DNA of 64,000 nt from Pirellulaceae bacterium (lineage in GTDB: Bacteria > Planctomycetota > Planctomycetia > Pirellulales > Pirellulaceae): assembly GCA_029243025.1 (NCBI GenBank), contig JAQWSU010000053.1, positions 62,001 through 126,000 on the forward strand. Reading direction: 5' to 3'. The notes below the pieces were generated by a model. The model was given only the letters and a program-made list of their open reading frames with translations, made no database searches and was not told the origin of the DNA. Shown here in pieces: positions 7,156 to 60,883 of the stretch. Every line of letters begins with the position of its first letter. Position 1 is the first letter of the stretch. Made by a program: the position numbers and the translations under genes.

Positions 7156-7644
7156 TCAGCGTATGAATTGGGTGACATAGTCGTCGCCAAGACCTGTTTG
7201 TGAAAAATGACGGCGACACATTTCTATTTTGGTGTGGACATCATCATGTCCCACTGTATTGTCATCATCGTCAAAATAGATCAGTGCCCCAAAGATATGA
7301 AACAGCGTGATCATTTCATCCGCGTTGTCGACAACCAATGTATGGACTTCACCAGGAGGCTCGAATACATAGTCGCCCTCGCGAGCGGTCCAGTCGTGCT
7401 CGAGGTAACGCCAGGATCCCTTGATGACATATCCGTGCACTGGGGCTGGATGTCGGTGTCGACTGAGCACGCCCGTCCGTCGGACGCGTAGTAGGTTTAC
7501 CCACGAACCTCCAGTCACATCGAGCAGCAACGGACGGAACCAGACGTTTTCCGCTTGCGGAACCCAAAGCCGTTCGTCTTCCGGAAGCGTCGGCGTGACT
7601 ATATCTGAAATTGCATGCGATAAAGACAAGTTTGATTGTGCCAT
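7156..7644 (-). CDS. Cupin protein, 2,4'-dihydroxyacetophenone dioxygenase family
   Basis: This 162-residue protein forms a single cupin barrel. Visible markers are LWVPQAENVWFRPLLLDVT, the metal site in VLSRHRHPAPVHGYVIKGSW (two or three His, residues about 62–70) and the second motif EGDYVFEPPGEVHTLVV. It closes with KIEMCRRH and LGDDYVTQFIR. The pattern matches proteins annotated as 2,4'-dihydroxyacetophenone dioxygenase, which cleave a C–C bond using one iron. Many relatives have untested roles, so the substrate is a family-level guess. It starts at ATG 7644 and seems to be a single-gene unit beside a deletion scar. Confidence 0.8.
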   Translation of the reverse strand: MAQSNLSLSHAISDIVTPTLPEDERLWVPQAENVWFRPLLLDVTGGSWVNLLRVRRTGVLSRHRHPAPVHGYVIKGSWRYLEHDWTAREGDYVFEPPGEVHTLVVDNADEMITLFHIFGALIYFDDDDNTVGHDDVHTKIEMCRRHFSQTGLGDDYVTQFIR

Positions 7645-8188
7645 GAGAAATGGTTTGTCCTAATGGTGTGTAACACGGGCCGCCGCTGAATCCAGCTTCC
7701 GACGAGTAATGCCGTTCAAGTCTTCCCATAATACAACAACCGATGTTGTGGGGCGAATGTGCCGAGCCCATTGTTAAGGCCTGCGAATAGACTTTCGGGA
7801 AATCGTCACAGGCTGTCCCTATCCCCTGAGCGACTAGCACGTTTTCGGATCGACACTGTCAGCGGACGAAGTGCTTTCGATACGCTGGTAGGGTACAACT
7901 TATGGGTGAGCCAGGCTCGGTCATTGCCTGTTCTCGTGCCTCGACGTGAACAGAACGGGCACCGATCACAAATCGTAGATCGACTCATTCTGTGGTTATT
8001 TGGCTTTTCCATCGTGCAGGCTTCCGGGAAAAGAGTTCTCAAAGGATGTAAATTCGAATGGGGAAGCCGATTTGAGGGAATAGTATGACTCACGCTACGA
8101 TGGATTTATACTGATTAGCAGTTGCAATGGTGCCAGATGGTGGACCGGGCCAGATAATGGCAGAGTTAATCCAAGTAAGAATCAAGGA
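7645..8188. other. Gene-poor 544-base stretch
   Basis: Open frames here are short, overlap on both strands and resemble nothing I know. The region separates the divergent cupin gene and the first cytochrome/DUF1549 gene and presumably holds both promoters. No repeat or clear hairpin was seen. Confidence 0.4.
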
Positions 8189-54911: not shown

Positions 54912-56069
54912 ATGCACCCAGAAATTACACTCATCGAGAGTTCCCATCGGCTTTTGTTGCGGTCGGCGCTGTGTGCCAACGAGGACGCGGTTGCCGCGTG
55001 GCAGGAATGGATTGCTGACTATGGTTTCGCATCGATTGATGAAAAAACTCGTGATCTGCTGCCACTCATTCACAGCAATCTGAAACGCGCCGAGACGCAA
55101 TACTCATGGCCTCAGCAGTTGGACCATCGTGGCCACCTCTGTCAGTTGGTGAATCGAGATCGAATTCGCGTGATGGCAAGCGTGGTGGGGGTGCTCGGTG
55201 ATGCTGGGATTCCCTGTATGGCACTTAAAGGGGCTGCGTTGATCCTCGCCTACTACGACGAACTTGGACTTCGTCCTATGGGGGATTTCGACATTTTGGT
55301 GCCCACGGTGCAAGGCGATCAAGCGCTGAGTTTACTGCAGAACCATCAATGGGAATTTTGTGAGGCACTGACTGGCAAGGAATCGGAGATTGCGACCGAT
55401 ACCATGCCCGGTGTGAATTTGGTTAATGAGAATGATGACAAATGCGACCTGCATTGGCATCTCTTGCACGATTGCTGCTTTCCTGATGCCGATCTTGTTT
55501 TCTGGGACCAAGCGACTTCGCTGAAGTGTTATGGTCAGAGGGTTTGGATCCCGTCACCCACCGATATGCTTTTGCATATCTGTGTGCATGGCTCGATGCG
55601 CAACGGAGCTCCGACTACTCGCTGGATTCCCGATGCGGTGGCTGTGATGAGAAAATCCGACAGCCAGATTGACTGGGATCGTTTGTTGGCCGAGGCCAAG
55701 ACAAGATCCTTTGTATTGATCCTGCAACGTGCCTTGCAGGCGATTGATGAAGTTTTGGAAGTATCGATTCCAGCAGCATTTCGTGAACGTCTAGCCAACA
55801 CGTCTGTTTCCTATCGTGAACGCGTTGAATATGGCATTCGACTTCGCGATAAGAATTACAAATTCACGTTGGTGGGACGCTGGTGTCAGTTGTCTCGCTA
55901 TCATCCCGATCGAAATCTTTGCTGGAAGGTCGGGTATTTTCCCTCGTTCTTGCTGAAAGTTTGGCACATTCATCGCTATCGCGATCTTTTTCCCCATCTC
56001 TTTCAATCCATTTCGATGTATTTTTGGCGGCATACTTCGCTGAAGCGTTTGAATGACGAAGATTGTTGA
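54912..56069 (+). CDS. Nucleotidyltransferase family protein (NTP_transf_5-like)
   Basis: The 385-residue protein (ATG 54912; TTG 54870 would add 14 residues) carries the family core MALKGAALILAYYDELGLRPMGDFDILVP, where the LKG, RPMGD and DxDIL elements form the nucleotide and metal site. A second conserved segment is KCDLHWHLLHDCCF, followed by LLHICVHGSMRNG and IPDAVAVMRKS. This family is recurrent next to PqqD-like proteins and HPr-kinase-like ATPases in peptide-modification loci, including some lasso-peptide clusters. Its reaction is not known to me. Here it precedes three small peptide genes, from which it is separated by 385 bases. Confidence 0.8.
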   Translation: MHPEITLIESSHRLLLRSALCANEDAVAAWQEWIADYGFASIDEKTRDLLPLIHSNLKRAETQYSWPQQLDHRGHLCQLVNRDRIRVMASVVGVLGDAGIPCMALKGAALILAYYDELGLRPMGDFDILVPTVQGDQALSLLQNHQWEFCEALTGKESEIATDTMPGVNLVNENDDKCDLHWHLLHDCCFPDADLVFWDQATSLKCYGQRVWIPSPTDMLLHICVHGSMRNGAPTTRWIPDAVAVMRKSDSQIDWDRLLAEAKTRSFVLILQRALQAIDEVLEVSIPAAFRERLANTSVSYRERVEYGIRLRDKNYKFTLVGRWCQLSRYHPDRNLCWKVGYFPSFLLKVWHIHRYRDLFPHLFQSISMYFWRHTSLKRLNDEDC

Positions 56070-56454
56070 TCAACCATTCATTGGAAGGGATGCATCTGCA
56101 GCAGTCGGGGGTTGACCCTATTTGTCAGGATGAATGGTTCGTAGGTGAATGGTCTCAAACGACCTGAAACGCGAATCGCTACGGATTTCCTAGGAGATAT
56201 GGGCTTTTCCGAAAGCTATCAACGATCTTGGAAAAGGTTTGAAACTGGCTATTGAGAGCGGGTATGCTAACAAGTCACGGAAGCTATTCGGTGTGATCGT
56301 TTGATTGATGAAAATGTGATTTAGGTAGAAGAATCAAAAGCAGTGATCGAGCTTCTGCCTGGGTTCGGTTTTGTCTTGTGTCGTTTTTGCACCGTTGTTA
56401 TTCGCATCGTTTTCAACAATACGCTCATTACGAAAAGCTGGAGAAAGAATTTCG
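56070..56454. other. 385-base leader before peptide copy 1
   Basis: No gene was recognised. The stretch is long for a three-peptide operon and may hold a promoter dedicated to the peptide genes. A purine-rich GGAGAAAGAA site lies 5–14 bases before ATG 56455. Confidence 0.45.
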
Positions 56455-56637
56455 ATGTCAGAAAACCCAGAGTTAAATCGCCAGTCGGATTCCCACGATG
56501 CGGCAGAGCACAACTCGGTAAGTCAGATACCCGAACAGTCGCGTCGCGAATTGTTGGGCAAGCTTCGCAAGGCTGCAATCGCAGTTCCCATTGCGACGGC
56601 GTTGGCGCTCAAGACGGAAACGGCATTTCCCTACTAG
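56455..56637 (+). CDS. Candidate precursor peptide, copy 1 (60 aa)
   Basis: A 60-residue peptide beginning MSENPELNRQSDSHD is called from ATG 56455, with GGAGAAAGAA upstream. Residues 1–24 are polar and not conserved among the three copies. Residues 25–60 (IPEQSRRELLGKLRKA, then AIAVPIATALAL, ending KTETAFPY) match copy 2 almost throughout and copy 3 strongly. The block looks like a twin-arginine (SRRELLGK) signal followed by a hydrophobic stretch, but almost nothing follows it. An export-only signal would normally precede a mature protein, so this is more like a precursor whose end is modified or cleaved. The neighbouring PqqD-bearing glycosyltransferase and HprK-like kinase fit such a role. 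The function is inferred. Confidence 0.7.
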   Translation: MSENPELNRQSDSHDAAEHNSVSQIPEQSRRELLGKLRKAAIAVPIATALALKTETAFPY

Positions 56638-57027
56638 TGATTACTAAATGCTTTTTGGCTAGGCCCTTTTGACGATCAAGTTTTTGGCGCTAAGCCGTTC
56701 GAATCAGCTTCGGATATTATCTTCGGCGAACGAAGTTGAGACGAAATTATCGGTTGGGATCCGGCGATGTGCACGAATGTCGTCATCCGTCGCGAGACCA
56801 ATCGCTTATCACGGTCAGCAGCGAGTTAAGAATGGTTAACGCCAACAGTAACTGCTTGCAAACTAGCCTTTCAAGAAGTTAGACTAGGCCCCGTGTTGGG
56901 GCGGAGATTTTTCGGAATTGGTTCGAATCCCTCACTGGCGACGTGACCGATTACTGGTGCGTCCAACTGAGTCGTTTTTTAGTCCGAGCAAATTTTTATC
57001 TGCAGAAAAGAAATTGGAGCTGCGATT
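56638..57027. other. 390-base gap between peptide copies 1 and 2
   Basis: No ORF was recognised. A GGTTCGAATCC string at 56920–56930 resembles a tRNA T-loop, but no tRNA fold surrounds it. The spacing suggests each peptide gene has its own promoter or a regulatory leader. Confidence 0.4.
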
Positions 57028-57210
57028 GTGATGACTGAACGCCAAGAACTAAATTTGAAATCAAGTTCATCTGATTCAACGTCATCTAGCGAGAGCGGAA
57101 TTCCTCAGCAATCGCGACGTGAAATGTTGGGCAAGTTGCGGAAGGCTGCGATTGCAATACCGATCGCTACCGCTTTGGCCATCAAGCCCGGAACAGCTTT
57201 TGCTTCCTAA
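57028..57210 (+). CDS. Candidate precursor peptide, copy 2 (60 aa)
   Basis: The frame starts GTG 57028 or ATG 57031 and encodes a 60- or 59-residue peptide. The first ~23 residues are Ser/Glu/Asp-rich and unlike copy 1. The rest reads GIPQQSRREMLGKLRKAA, IAIPIATALAI and KPGTAFAS, differing from copy 1 only in a few positions. Counting from GTG, both copies have exactly 60 residues and the SRRE motif falls at the same position. The peptide ends in serine, the residue type phosphorylated at the C-terminus by HprK-like kinases in paeninodin-type lasso systems. That parallel is suggestive only, because copies 1 and 3 end in Tyr and Ala. Confidence 0.7.
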   Translation: MMTERQELNLKSSSSDSTSSSESGIPQQSRREMLGKLRKAAIAIPIATALAIKPGTAFAS

Positions 57211-57306
57211 TCGCAAACCTTGTTCATCCTAGCGTCTACTTTTGTTTTCCGTTTTTCACCGTCACCTGTTCGATCGTACCGATTTGTACAAAGGTGTTTG
57301 TGGAAA

Positions 57307-57497
57307 ATGTCGACTCAACGAGACTTGGAGACAGCAGACTGTAATCAGGACGGAAGGCAAACGCCAAGCAACCGAATACCCGAATACCCGCACAGTCGCG
57401 TCGCGAATTGTTGGCTCATCTTCGAAAAACTGCTGTTCTGGTTCCCGTCGCGACGGCTCTAGCGCTCAAGTCGGGTACCGCCTTCGGTGAAGCCTAG
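57307..57497 (+). pseudogene. Precursor peptide copy 3, broken by 8-bp duplication
   Basis: From ATG 57307 the peptide opens MSTQRDLETADCNQDGRQ, and then the frame is lost at CGAATACC repeated at 57373–57388. Without one copy of the repeat, the reading continues as IPAQSRRELLAHLRK, TAVLVPVATALAL and KSGTAFGEA to a TAG at 57497, again exactly 60 residues. The gene is thus a third, more divergent member of the same family, inactivated by a perfect 8-bp tandem duplication. The next gene, the glycosyltransferase–PqqD fusion, begins 84 bases later. Confidence 0.85.
57373..57388 (+). repeat. 8-bp tandem duplication (CGAATACC ×2)
   Basis: Two perfect copies of CGAATACC abut inside peptide copy 3. 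Removal of one restores the conserved reading frame, showing that the duplication is the inactivating event. Confidence 0.9.
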
Positions 57498-57581
57498 TTG
57501 TTCTGGGACCGTCGCAACACGATGAACGTGATGGGTCGTAGGCGAACTGGATGTAACGGCGAAAGGTGTGATTGATCTGAA

Positions 57582-58877
57582 TTGGAGACTCAGCATTCCC
57601 GTAATCCCCAGTCGCCTTTCGTATCCGTCTGTATCTTGGGTGCTGACAAACGACCTGCTATCAAAAGAGCTATCCAATCCGTCAGGGAATTCGGATTAGA
57701 GGTCCACGTTGGTGTCGCGGGCCAGCGGGAAGAGCTGGAATCTATCGGCGGGGTGCATCAGCACCTGATTAAATGGAAAAGTGATTTCGCTGCAGCGCGC
57801 AATAGTTTGCTGGCCCAAGTCGATTCTGAATTTGTTTTGTGGATCGATAGTGACGAAATACTTCTAAGCTTTTCTGAGCTTGATTGGAGTCACTTGCAGG
57901 GCGACTTGCATGCGGTTCGTATCTGTGATGAAGCGAATTTGACGGCCACGACTCGAGTGCGCTGTCATCGAAACAGTGCCAACGTAAGCTGGGTTGGCGC
58001 GATTCACGAACAGCTTCGCTCCACGAGTGAAGCCAATGACTGCCCCCGAACCTTGCCAGGGATCTTGATCATTCATGAAGGTTACGAAGATCCTCTCTCG
58101 TATCCAGAAAAGTATCAGCGAAATCTGACGATCGCTACGGAGCAAATTGACAAAGGGGAAGCATCGCATGGGGCGATGTCAGTCTTGGCCAGTTCAGGTG
58201 GTAACAATCGGTCGGAGGAAAACGTGCGACGGTGGCTGCAATGTTTTGAGCACCCTGATGTGCGTCCATCCAACTATGTCGACCGACGGCACGTTGCCGC
58301 CGCGGTGCTTTGTGAACTCGGCCACCCAGAATCCGCTCTATCAGTGTTGAGTCGCAATCCGCTCATTCTTTCACTTCAGTTGGCGGTCCTGGCAGACGGA
58401 CTTCGTGTCACGGGAGAAATCGATGAAGAACGCCTTTGTTTTGTGGAAAAGGTTTTGCGGCACGGGGCGTTTGATCATAATTATCCATTGCCAACTGAGC
58501 TCCTGGGGCAGAGTCGTGATGGGATTTTGAGTTACCTAAATCAAATTGTTGAGGAGTGGACTGTGGACGATAATGAAGCTGAAGTTTCTTTTGGTCCGGA
58601 AACTCGGTTTGCCAGAAGTGACCGTATTGAGGAAGAGGAATTTGACGGTGACCGCGTGTTGCTGCATATGGATACTCGAAAGGTCATTGTGCTGAACGCG
58701 ACCGCCGCCGTCATGTGGCAAGCGCTCGCTTGGCGAGTTACGCGTGCGGAGCTACTCGATCTATTGAAGGAAGCTCATCCTGAATCGTCTACAAGTGAGC
58801 TGGAAGAATCCCTATCACAAACATTGGCTATCCTTCACAAAGAGAGCTTTCTCGAAATCTGTGAATCAAACAAATAA
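57582..58877 (+). CDS. Glycosyltransferase–PqqD fusion protein
   Basis: The 431-residue protein starts at a TTG, with a GAAAGGTG site upstream. Residues about 13–180 are a GT2-like GT-A domain (SVCILGADKRPAIKRAIQSV, FAAARNSLLAQVDSEFVLWIDSDEILL with DSD at 89–91). Residues about 200–335 are helical and unassigned. Residues about 343–427 form a PqqD-like domain (FARSDRIEEEEFDGDRVLLHM, RKVIVLNATAAVMWQALA, TLAILHKESFLEI), the fold that acts as peptide recognition element (RRE) in RiPP biosynthesis. PqqD and a glycosyltransferase on one chain, directly behind three peptide genes, suggests a glycosyltransferase that captures the peptide. This is inferred, not shown. Confidence 0.85.
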   Translation: METQHSRNPQSPFVSVCILGADKRPAIKRAIQSVREFGLEVHVGVAGQREELESIGGVHQHLIKWKSDFAAARNSLLAQVDSEFVLWIDSDEILLSFSELDWSHLQGDLHAVRICDEANLTATTRVRCHRNSANVSWVGAIHEQLRSTSEANDCPRTLPGILIIHEGYEDPLSYPEKYQRNLTIATEQIDKGEASHGAMSVLASSGGNNRSEENVRRWLQCFEHPDVRPSNYVDRRHVAAAVLCELGHPESALSVLSRNPLILSLQLAVLADGLRVTGEIDEERLCFVEKVLRHGAFDHNYPLPTELLGQSRDGILSYLNQIVEEWTVDDNEAEVSFGPETRFARSDRIEEEEFDGDRVLLHMDTRKVIVLNATAAVMWQALAWRVTRAELLDLLKEAHPESSTSELEESLSQTLAILHKESFLEICESNK

Positions 58878-59268
58878 AGTTGACGCGTTTGTGATTGCTT
58901 TGGGCGAGTTTTTCTGGAGCAATCAATGCGATTAACTCCAAGGATTTTGGACCGATCTGAAATTCAATCGGGAGGTCGCGTTCAATGGTATAATGGATCA
59001 CAGCGATTGGCTTTTCGCGTAAATTAAATAAGTGGAAGCACGATCCGAACGGCGCGCGGGATTCCACGGCGTAGTTTGCAAGCCAGGCAGCCAGCTGAGT
59101 GGTGGTGTGACTTTCATGCCGAACGGTGGCTGGGGGCGACCTGTGATCTTCGTGGTTTTCGCTTCTTTTCGGCTTCGCCCGATTTTGCGAACGTGGAACG
59201 ACAACTCATGCGTGATCACGAAATGAAATTCTTCGCACAAGAAGTTCGATGCTTGAAGGATCACGGCA
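58878..59268. other. 391-base gap with 3' remnant of an unidentified gene
   Basis: A frame with no good start runs to a TGA at 59274–59276, which overlaps the next ATG (59269) in the usual coupled way. Its last ~70 residues (AEWWCDFHAERWLG, PDFANVERQLMRDHEMKF, AQEVRCLKDHGNG) look protein-like. I could not identify them, and the frame is interrupted upstream, so I take it as the tail of a decayed gene. Nothing else was recognised. Confidence 0.35.
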
Positions 59269-59928
59269 ATGGGTGAGCTGCTCAAAACAACAGTATGTGT
59301 CCCTTGTTATGGACCTCATTTCGAACTCGTTGAAGAATTGATTGACGCATATGAAAAGCAGACCGTTCCACCTGATGAACTGGTGATTTCTCTGTCTGAA
59401 TCGCTGCTTTGTTCCGTGCCGGAAAAATATGACACACCTTTTCCTGTCAAAGTCATTCGCTCCGAGGAACGACGTTTTCCAGGAGAAAATCGGAACGTTG
59501 CAGCGGAGCATAGCAGCGGAGATATTTTGATTTTCAACGATGCGGATGATTTGCCATCTCGTGGACGCGTCGAAATCATTCGGCAAGTGTTTGCTTCCCG
59601 CCCAAATGCTTTGGGCGTTGTGCATGATTGGGTTGCGAACGTTGACGCAGCAGAGTTTTTCGAGCAATCCAACACGATTACCGTCGAAAAGTTTTCGGTG
59701 CGACCTTGGGTCAAGGGGCAAGGAGGGTATGCGAACGGTCCTGTTTCAATTCGTCGGTCGGTGATTGACCATGTTCGGTGGAGTGGGATGCGAAGGGCGC
59801 AGGATGTCGAATTCTTTCGGCAGCTGTATTATTTTTGCCGGGCGTCGAAGAAGTACATTGCCTACATCGTTGATCCAATCTATCTTTATCGGAAATCGCT
59901 TTCTTCAGAAAGAAGAGACCCGTCGTGA
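59269..59928 (+). CDS. Glycosyltransferase family 2, compact
   Basis: The 219-residue GT-A enzyme starts MGELLKTTVCVPCYGPHFELVEELIDAYEKQ. It has the acidic motif in DELVISLSES, FPGENRNVAAEHSSGDILIFNDADD with the metal-binding DAD, and YANGPVSIRRSVIDHV followed by AQDVEFFRQLYYF as acceptor-side text. It is shorter than most GT2 enzymes and ends soon after the core, so no membrane anchor or second domain is present. It is placed between the GT–PqqD fusion and the HprK-like gene, all on one strand. Its ATG overlaps the stop of the remnant upstream, which suggests that a lost gene used to be coupled to it. Confidence 0.85.
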   Translation: MGELLKTTVCVPCYGPHFELVEELIDAYEKQTVPPDELVISLSESLLCSVPEKYDTPFPVKVIRSEERRFPGENRNVAAEHSSGDILIFNDADDLPSRGRVEIIRQVFASRPNALGVVHDWVANVDAAEFFEQSNTITVEKFSVRPWVKGQGGYANGPVSIRRSVIDHVRWSGMRRAQDVEFFRQLYYFCRASKKYIAYIVDPIYLYRKSLSSERRDPS

Positions 59929-60022
59929 AGTTGCAGCCGGTGAAAAACACGCTCGCCCAGCGGCTCTGCGAGAAGGCCGTTTTTTGGGTTTGGCGTTTGA
60001 GATAAAAAAACGATGATTCTTA

Positions 60023-60883
60023 TTGAGAATGGGGGCGTCGAAACAACCGATGAACTTTGCCTTTGAATGGGAAGATTCGGTTGTTTTCCTTTCCGTGAGC
60101 GTGCAGCAGTTTGCGGAACGCGTAGGCTTCTACCTGGATATCGTTCCCGTCGCCTGTCGCGTGGCTGGCGAGAGTGATGTCGAAGTTGAAGTTCTAAGTT
60201 CCGGCGGTTTTGATGTTTCATTTGCTGGTAGGCAGCGTCACTGCGAAAACTCCCAGGATTGCCTTGTCGCAATCTTGACATTCGTCAGCGCGAGTTTCCT
60301 GAGAAAGACTCGCCATCTCGTTTTGCACTCGGGTGCGATCTGTATTGACGATCAGGCTGTCCTCTTCGTTGGAGAGCCACGCGCCGGGAAATCACTTTTC
60401 GCGCTGACAGCCTGGTTGGCGGGGATTCCCCTGATCGGAGATGACTGGATTGCGATTGATTGTGAGCAGAGAACGGTGATTCCCTTTCCGAAGACGTTGA
60501 AGCCTCGACTAAGCTTCGATTCGCTTACGACGGCCGCCCAAAACCGGATTTCGAAAGATGACTATGTGGAAGGTCGGCTGCACGAGGAGCACCGACTGGT
60601 CATTAGTCGAAAAACAGCGGGAATGGTGGGGTACGCCGAAAGGAAGCCCGTCTCCAGGATGTTGTGGCTTGAGCGAACTACAGAGACATCGGCGATCTCG
60701 CCACTCAAGAAACAAGAAGCGATCGAGATCCTACTGTCTCAAGTTGTTCCCACCAAATCAGCATCGGTGCTTGCAATACTCGAGGTATTGCAACCTCTTG
60801 TTAATTGTGGAGCGTGTCAACGCTTGGCAATTGGTGAGAACGAATCGGCGCAAGCCGTGCATCGCCTTTTGCAGCCGGAATAA
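60023..60883 (+). CDS. HPr kinase-like P-loop ATPase (HprK-related), second locus
   Basis: The 286-residue protein (TTG 60023; ATG 60029 and 60050 are alternatives) has the HprK kinase core. LHSGAICIDDQAVLFVGEPRAGKSLFAL contains Walker A GEPRAGKS (117–124) and LIGDDWIAID (137–146) is the acidic HprK motif, here with the GDD intact. The N-terminal ~90 residues are the subfamily's own region. Compared with the copy at 5251–6279 the loop and acidic residues differ (PISGGKST and SEDTPL there). In RiPP-type loci such proteins phosphorylate or otherwise modify the precursor; its placement after the peptides, PqqD-GT and GT2 supports that idea. The substrate is unknown. Confidence 0.8.
   Translation: MRMGASKQPMNFAFEWEDSVVFLSVSVQQFAERVGFYLDIVPVACRVAGESDVEVEVLSSGGFDVSFAGRQRHCENSQDCLVAILTFVSASFLRKTRHLVLHSGAICIDDQAVLFVGEPRAGKSLFALTAWLAGIPLIGDDWIAIDCEQRTVIPFPKTLKPRLSFDSLTTAAQNRISKDDYVEGRLHEEHRLVISRKTAGMVGYAERKPVSRMLWLERTTETSAISPLKKQEAIEILLSQVVPTKSASVLAILEVLQPLVNCGACQRLAIGENESAQAVHRLLQPE

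Follow-up and report, generated by a model that had tools for sequence, protein, structure and literature searches.

Two described groups of ribosomally synthesized and post-translationally modified peptides (RiPPs) come closest to the locus reported here. An HprK kinase, a RiPP recognition element (RRE) and an NTP transferase, with no cyclase, form the core of the LPP RiPPs, in which LppK transfers phosphate to a Ser in a linear peptide and whose clusters are located within capsule loci (PMC13381572). In the lasso peptide pseudomycoidin, the C-terminal Ser receives a phosphate from PsmK and hexoses from PsmN (PMC9266682). Fusions of an RRE to a glycosyltransferase (GT) were predicted earlier by RRE-Finder (PMC7470986; also PMC12710340). 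Here we describe a stretch of 64,000 nucleotides from a Pirellulaceae bacterium (contig JAQWSU010000053.1, positions 62,001 to 126,000; hereafter the window), in which three small peptide genes are surrounded by genes for an NTP_transf_5 protein, a GT fused to a PqqD-type RRE, a second GT and an HprK-like kinase. The original prediction took this cassette for a candidate RiPP-like system and knew of no described system of such a make-up. The type of locus and the context of its homologues speak for the RiPP-like part of that claim, while the lack of precedent does not hold given the three reports above, and the resemblance of the peptides' conserved block to twin-arginine translocation (Tat) signals had been overlooked. 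The best reading of these genes is a cassette related to the LPP RiPPs and to pseudomycoidin tailoring, and the balance tips slightly towards a role in attaching sugar and phosphate to a linear peptide under the guidance of the RRE.

All genes of the cassette lie on the plus strand, with the peptide genes placed between the NTP_transf_5 gene and those of the GT-PqqD fusion, the second GT and the kinase. The NTP_transf_5 protein (54912..56069) matches PF14907 with 124 bits (E 7e-36) and has the motif GLRPMGDFDILV. The fusion protein (57582..58877) is a GT2-like glycosyltransferase of 431 aa with a C-terminal PqqD/RRE domain (58656-58850, residues 359-423; Pfam, 33 bits, over the cut-off), and its TTG start is common to the related locus L071 described below. 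A second GT2 glycosyltransferase follows (59269..59928; PF00535, 48 bits, E 2e-12; motif FNDADD), and then an HprK-like P-loop kinase (60023..60883), which matches HprK_rel_A at E 1e-6. The enzymes originally proposed to lie around the peptides are thus borne out by these matches, with the kinase below the Pfam and NCBIfam cut-offs. It keeps H102, G122, K123 and D140 (His, Walker GK, Asp), residues that are invariant across 10 cassette kinases. With the two NCBIfam families of the HPr-rel-A system, the locus scores 28.1 of 200 bits (TIGR04352) and 14.7 of 35 bits (TIGR04353).

Peptide 1 (56455..56637) is intact and 60 aa long, with homologues in L071 and its C-terminal block, SRRELLGKLRKAAIAVPIATALALKTETAFPY, at 56539-56634. 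Peptide 2 (57028..57210) is also intact, with 60 aa from a GTG start or 59 aa from the next ATG (57031). The frame of peptide 3 (57307..57497) is broken by an 8-bp tandem duplication, the unit CGAATACC occurring at 57373-57380 and again at 57381-57388, and its block can be read undamaged in the following frame. Open reading frames (ORFs) and alignment therefore bear out three small genes of 60 aa each, the third only after repair, that share a C-terminal block; the consensus of the aligned window peptides is P-x-QSRRE-[LM]-L-x-x-LRK-x-A-x-x-x-P-x-ATALA-x-K-x-x-TAF. The N-terminal part had been called unconserved and is indeed mostly variable, but [ED]L recurs near residue 7 and Ser/Cys near residue 12-13, the latter as [DS]-[SC]-[NHS] in the heads of five sequences. 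This recurring Ser/Cys might, on rather slender grounds, be a candidate acceptor for modification. Every intact copy ends 1-3 residues past the block, which is therefore not the signal part of some larger protein, a case that the original prediction had named as one that would overturn it.

The cassette has one close relative. A scan of genome contigs with GT-PqqD returned L071, from a Planctomycetaceae metagenome-assembled genome (PBNZ01000029.1), where the order is as in the window: NTP_transf_5, two peptides, GT-PqqD, GT2 and HprK-like gene. The two loci have about 75% nucleotide identity, the GT-PqqD proteins are 81% identical over their whole length, and both L071 peptides (7433-7612 and 7730-7909) are intact, 60 aa long and match at E 1e-33. 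The sole peptide homologues found therefore do sit beside PqqD, HprK and NTP-transferase genes, the check that had been proposed for them. Synteny between the two genomes is broad in this region, so conserved order alone is weak evidence; the minus-strand gene after the cassette is also common to both. Selection, as estimated from the substitutions, is stronger evidence for maintenance. Between window and L071, dN/dS is 0.09 for GT-PqqD, 0.12 for the second GT2, 0.13 for NTP_transf_5 and 0.16 for the kinase. For the peptide block it is about 0.06-0.23 in pairs with unsaturated synonymous change, the exception being a recent pair within L071 (0.65 on 8 changes), and the block of the broken peptide 3 is still at about 0.2 versus the other copies. 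By these ratios the C-terminal block is under purifying selection, and the peptide genes are not a product of chance, since L071 has the same order and homologues and the block has low dN/dS. Across 296 genomes from the order, the peptide profile gave chance-level matches only beyond the window, and searches with GT-PqqD and the kinase found no close relative, the matches being to the GT domain or the P-loop only.

Such values also bear on whether the peptides are decayed precursors, leaders without a core in a cassette that is being lost. Decay would account for a core down to 1-3 residues in every copy, for the frameshift in peptide 3, for the loss of the RRE-motif aromatic (see below) and for an occurrence in two genomes only. 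It is at odds with the low dN/dS of the block and the four enzymes, with the constant length of 60 aa and with the 2-3 copies kept per genome, and we consider it quite unlikely.

How does the cassette compare with the described systems? An HprK-like kinase (as judged from its sequence), an RRE of the PqqD family, an NTP transferase, small precursors and the lack of a macrolactam cyclase are common to it and the LPP RiPPs. In contrast, the window RRE is fused behind a GT whereas the LPP RRE is discrete, the conserved block is C-terminal in the window and N-terminal in LPP precursors, the window has two GTs, and its peptides lack YxxPxVLxHQxIxFETxxS, the N-terminal LPP precursor motif. Moreover, the SpI-like signal peptidase and MsbA-like transporter of LPP clusters went unrecognised among the window ORFs read by eye. 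As four LPP features fail (discrete RRE, SpI peptidase, transporter and leader motif), we do not file the cassette as LPP. With the lasso peptides of the paeninodin/pseudomycoidin type (PadeK, PsmK, PsmN) the window shares the tailoring pair of kinase and NTP transferase and a PqqD-type B1, but not the lasso cyclase, B2 peptidase or lasso leader motif. Among the neighbouring ORFs, both an asparagine-synthetase-like cyclase and a B2 peptidase are absent, in line with the earlier view that glycosyltransferases are present at the locus and a ring-closing cyclase or radical SAM enzyme is not. The RRE-GT fusions of RRE-Finder have the same domain combination as GT-PqqD but are architecture-based predictions, and the available part of that source mentions neither kinase or NTP-transferase partners nor Tat-like peptides. 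Glycocins (SunS, ThuS) likewise involve a GT2 fold modifying a small peptide, with a weak sequence match to the window GT domain; unlike them, the intact window peptides are devoid of Cys, and so of a nested-disulfide core, there is no dedicated ABC transporter, and an RRE is present. Finally, the HPr-rel-A system (TIGR04352/TIGR04353) and the SynChlorMet cassette also combine an HprK-related kinase with a PqqD-like partner, although the window scores given above fall far under the curated HPr-rel-A cut-offs.

The GT domain of the fusion protein is weak as a GT2 in Pfam and reaches 18 bits with TIGR04195, the SunS-family S-glycosyltransferases, against a cut-off of 350. Its closest solved relative is GmaR (E 2e-12), followed weakly by SunS. 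GmaR acts on flagellin Ser/Thr and SunS on a peptide Cys; therefore, the GT domain of GT-PqqD is likely to use a protein or peptide as acceptor as well. Ten of the long PqqD-fused proteins from 149 genomes of the phylum were scanned with Pfam, and none of this subset was a GT fusion: they are fused to radical SAM, 2-oxoglutarate (2OG) oxygenase or S24-peptidase domains or are unassigned. A planctomycete 2OG-Fe(II) oxygenase-PqqD fusion is found at L204:1130-2482, while L122:5481-7751 and L210:453-1400 have PqqD and an S24/S26-type peptidase domain in one frame, which recalls the leader peptidase SpI found in LPP clusters. The window's genome additionally encodes a 738-aa GT2-radical SAM-SPASM fusion near a PqqD gene (L080:8536-10752), and beyond the shared minus-strand gene L071 has genes for a radical SAM/SPASM protein and a GT2 (L071:13421-15298), a position at which the window genome lacks them.

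Further cassettes with PqqD, HprK, GT2 and NTP_transf_5 are present in the window's genome on contigs C14, C34 and C49, and more loosely on C56; the small ORFs beside them include no matching peptides. Across the phylum, NTP_transf_5 occurs in 46 of 149 genomes. An HprK-like gene is near 24 of the 40 NTP_transf_5 loci fetched, many of them on short contigs, and both HprK-like and PqqD genes are near 16, counts that are approximate because the hidden Markov models were iterated on those same loci. Several of these cassettes encode small peptides whose leader, of the kind TRRQFLKKGLYLTPAILTLTIRPSFAS (skeleton RR-[FL]L ... YxxPx[IV] ... T), precedes a variable core that is often Cys/Pro-rich. YLTPAI of these leaders, within a Tat-signal-like stretch, fits [YW]xxPx[LVIAFY], the RRE-binding motif of lasso and LPP leaders (PMC13381572). 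A profile built from six leaders, with the window's peptides left out, found nine further peptides. Five are within 1 kb of an NTP_transf_5 gene, and of the remaining four, three are close to or at the end of a contig. RR...YxxP motifs counted by regular expression barely outnumbered those in shuffles (34 versus 18-29), so profile matches with context alone were used. Peptides with a Tat-like twin-Arg and YxxPx[IV] leader lie by HprK/PqqD/NTP_transf_5 genes in L093, L103, L110, L123 and L154-L159, with Cys/Pro-rich or Gly-rich cores, and genome G296 has about nine copies of such peptides.

Another arrangement was seen in 11 of 246 genomes of the order, in which a tail reading [YWF]xxPx[LMVF] ... 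D[ML]x(D/E)LLLLDP[IV]H[DE]Vxx-GWP stands behind the PqqD fold, the PqqD domain being always in the same frame. Examples are L079:10248-10784, L083:5784-6317 and, with a looser tail, L081:1578-2015 in the window's genome, and L161-L172 in other genomes of the order; the HprK-like gene is usually directly downstream of these proteins or fused to them. The tail resembles a precursor peptide that is joined in cis to its own RRE.

The C-terminal block of the window peptides can be read beside these leaders. Twin Arg, LL, Pro, T, a basic residue and then AF-small are common to both, while in the window peptides the aromatic is replaced by I/V, the distance from RR to Pro is three residues longer than in most leaders, and the sequence ends where a core would begin. 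IxxPxA or VxxPxA is found in all five peptides of the window and L071, not the lasso motif [YW]xxPx[LVIAFY]. The leader-profile scores were reached by 0, 10 and 22 of 4000 composition shuffles for the window peptides, and by 1 and 0 for those of L071. By reading, the block is Tat-like: SRRxLL, 13 uncharged residues, K and AF[GAP]. This opens the possibility that the peptides are small proteins tethered to the membrane or targeted to Tat in their own right (a Tat-type signal anchor), with the GT, NTP transferase and kinase serving a surface glycan or another protein and the neighbourhood coincidental or only regulatory. Features that fit a Tat signal are SRRxLL, the exactly 13 uncharged residues between invariant Lys, a basic residue that comes after the h-region, and AF[GAP]; hhalign gives a weak match of the block to ordinary Tat signals, and a planctomycete Tat substrate (L133) has TRRSFLKKTAGAAIAVPTIAT in common with the peptides. 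Nevertheless, no mature part follows the block, leaving nothing to export, and the PqqD domain in the adjacent gene, together with the triad found by Tat-like peptides elsewhere, predicts a peptide substrate. We hold such an independent function to be unlikely. No report linking Tat signals with RREs was found in the open literature searched, which is not proof of absence.

The missing aromatic has a possible counterpart in the RRE. In the LppB-LppA RRE structure the leader Tyr is fixed by D70 (PMC13381572). When aligned with LppB, TbiB1 and TfuB1 as anchors, RREs beside peptides with a Tyr/Trp motif keep this Asp (L105, L110, L120, L123, L154 and L158; by eye also L093, where the automatic alignment took another stretch). 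Ser takes its place in the window RRE and in L085/L089, where the peptide motif is FxEPKL, and Ala does so in L071. Loss of Tyr in the precursor may thus go with loss of the Tyr-anchoring Asp in the RRE, a pairing that is no more than suggestive because it comprises just two independent losses.

Taken as substrates, the three small genes would be used as follows. The PqqD domain would grip the C-terminal block around [IV]xxPxA, inside SRRxLLxxLRKA...ATAL, and thereby bring the variable, hydrophilic head at the N-terminus within reach of the GT domain, and the latter could place a sugar on Ser/Thr (or Cys). The HprK-like kinase would phosphorylate a hydroxyl of the peptide, and NTP_transf_5 and the second GT2 may then add to the sugar or phosphosugar, in the way pseudomycoidin is tailored by PsmK and PsmN, the order of these steps being provisional. 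The Tat-like block may hold the peptide at the membrane or deliver it to the Tat machinery. Since no core lies behind the signal-like block, Tat export of a mature peptide is unlikely, and a decorated peptide that is membrane-held or cytosolic is easier to reconcile with the locus. A membrane-held peptide could alternatively be a primer, its head bearing a growing glycan or phosphoglycan for surface polysaccharide assembly. The two GTs, kinase and NTP transferase of the cassette, the capsule setting of LPP clusters (PMC13381572) and the Wza-like export gene and other glycan genes adjoining the L110 cassette (read from ORFs) would suit a primer; no flippase, polymerase or exporter was recognised among the ORFs neighbouring the window cassette, a head-in-cytosol topology is conjectural, and we regard this role as improbable.

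Several points weigh against RRE-guided tailoring of a linear peptide. The system is known here from its genes, which are consistent with the general RiPP scheme of an encoded precursor acted on by the enzyme of an adjacent gene. One of the three window peptides is broken, and the peptides occur in only two genomes, too few for a proper coevolution test with the RRE. No leader peptidase or exporter was recognised in the window cassette (neighbouring ORFs read by eye, part of them scanned with profiles). The AlphaFold model of GT-PqqD is too poor to use (mean pLDDT 44). In hhalign the block matched ordinary Tat signals with probability 42 and RRE leaders with probability 30, both weak, and specific homology of the block to RRE leaders was not established; RRE leaders matched Tat signals with probability 95. 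The more specific proposal, that the Tat-like C-terminal block is a follower read by the GT-fused RRE while the head is glycosylated and phosphorylated, and that leaders across the phylum double as RRE ligand and Tat signal, is tentative and rather doubtful as a whole.

If tailoring of a linear peptide is nevertheless the role of the cassette, peptide modification by HprK, RRE and NTP transferase, experimentally described in Bacillota, would extend to Planctomycetota, with a GT standing next to the RRE where sibling cassettes have radical SAM enzymes or peptidases. The locus would also offer a testable pairing, an RRE without the Tyr-anchoring Asp and a precursor without the Tyr, and a testable case of peptide leaders with a possible second role as Tat signals.

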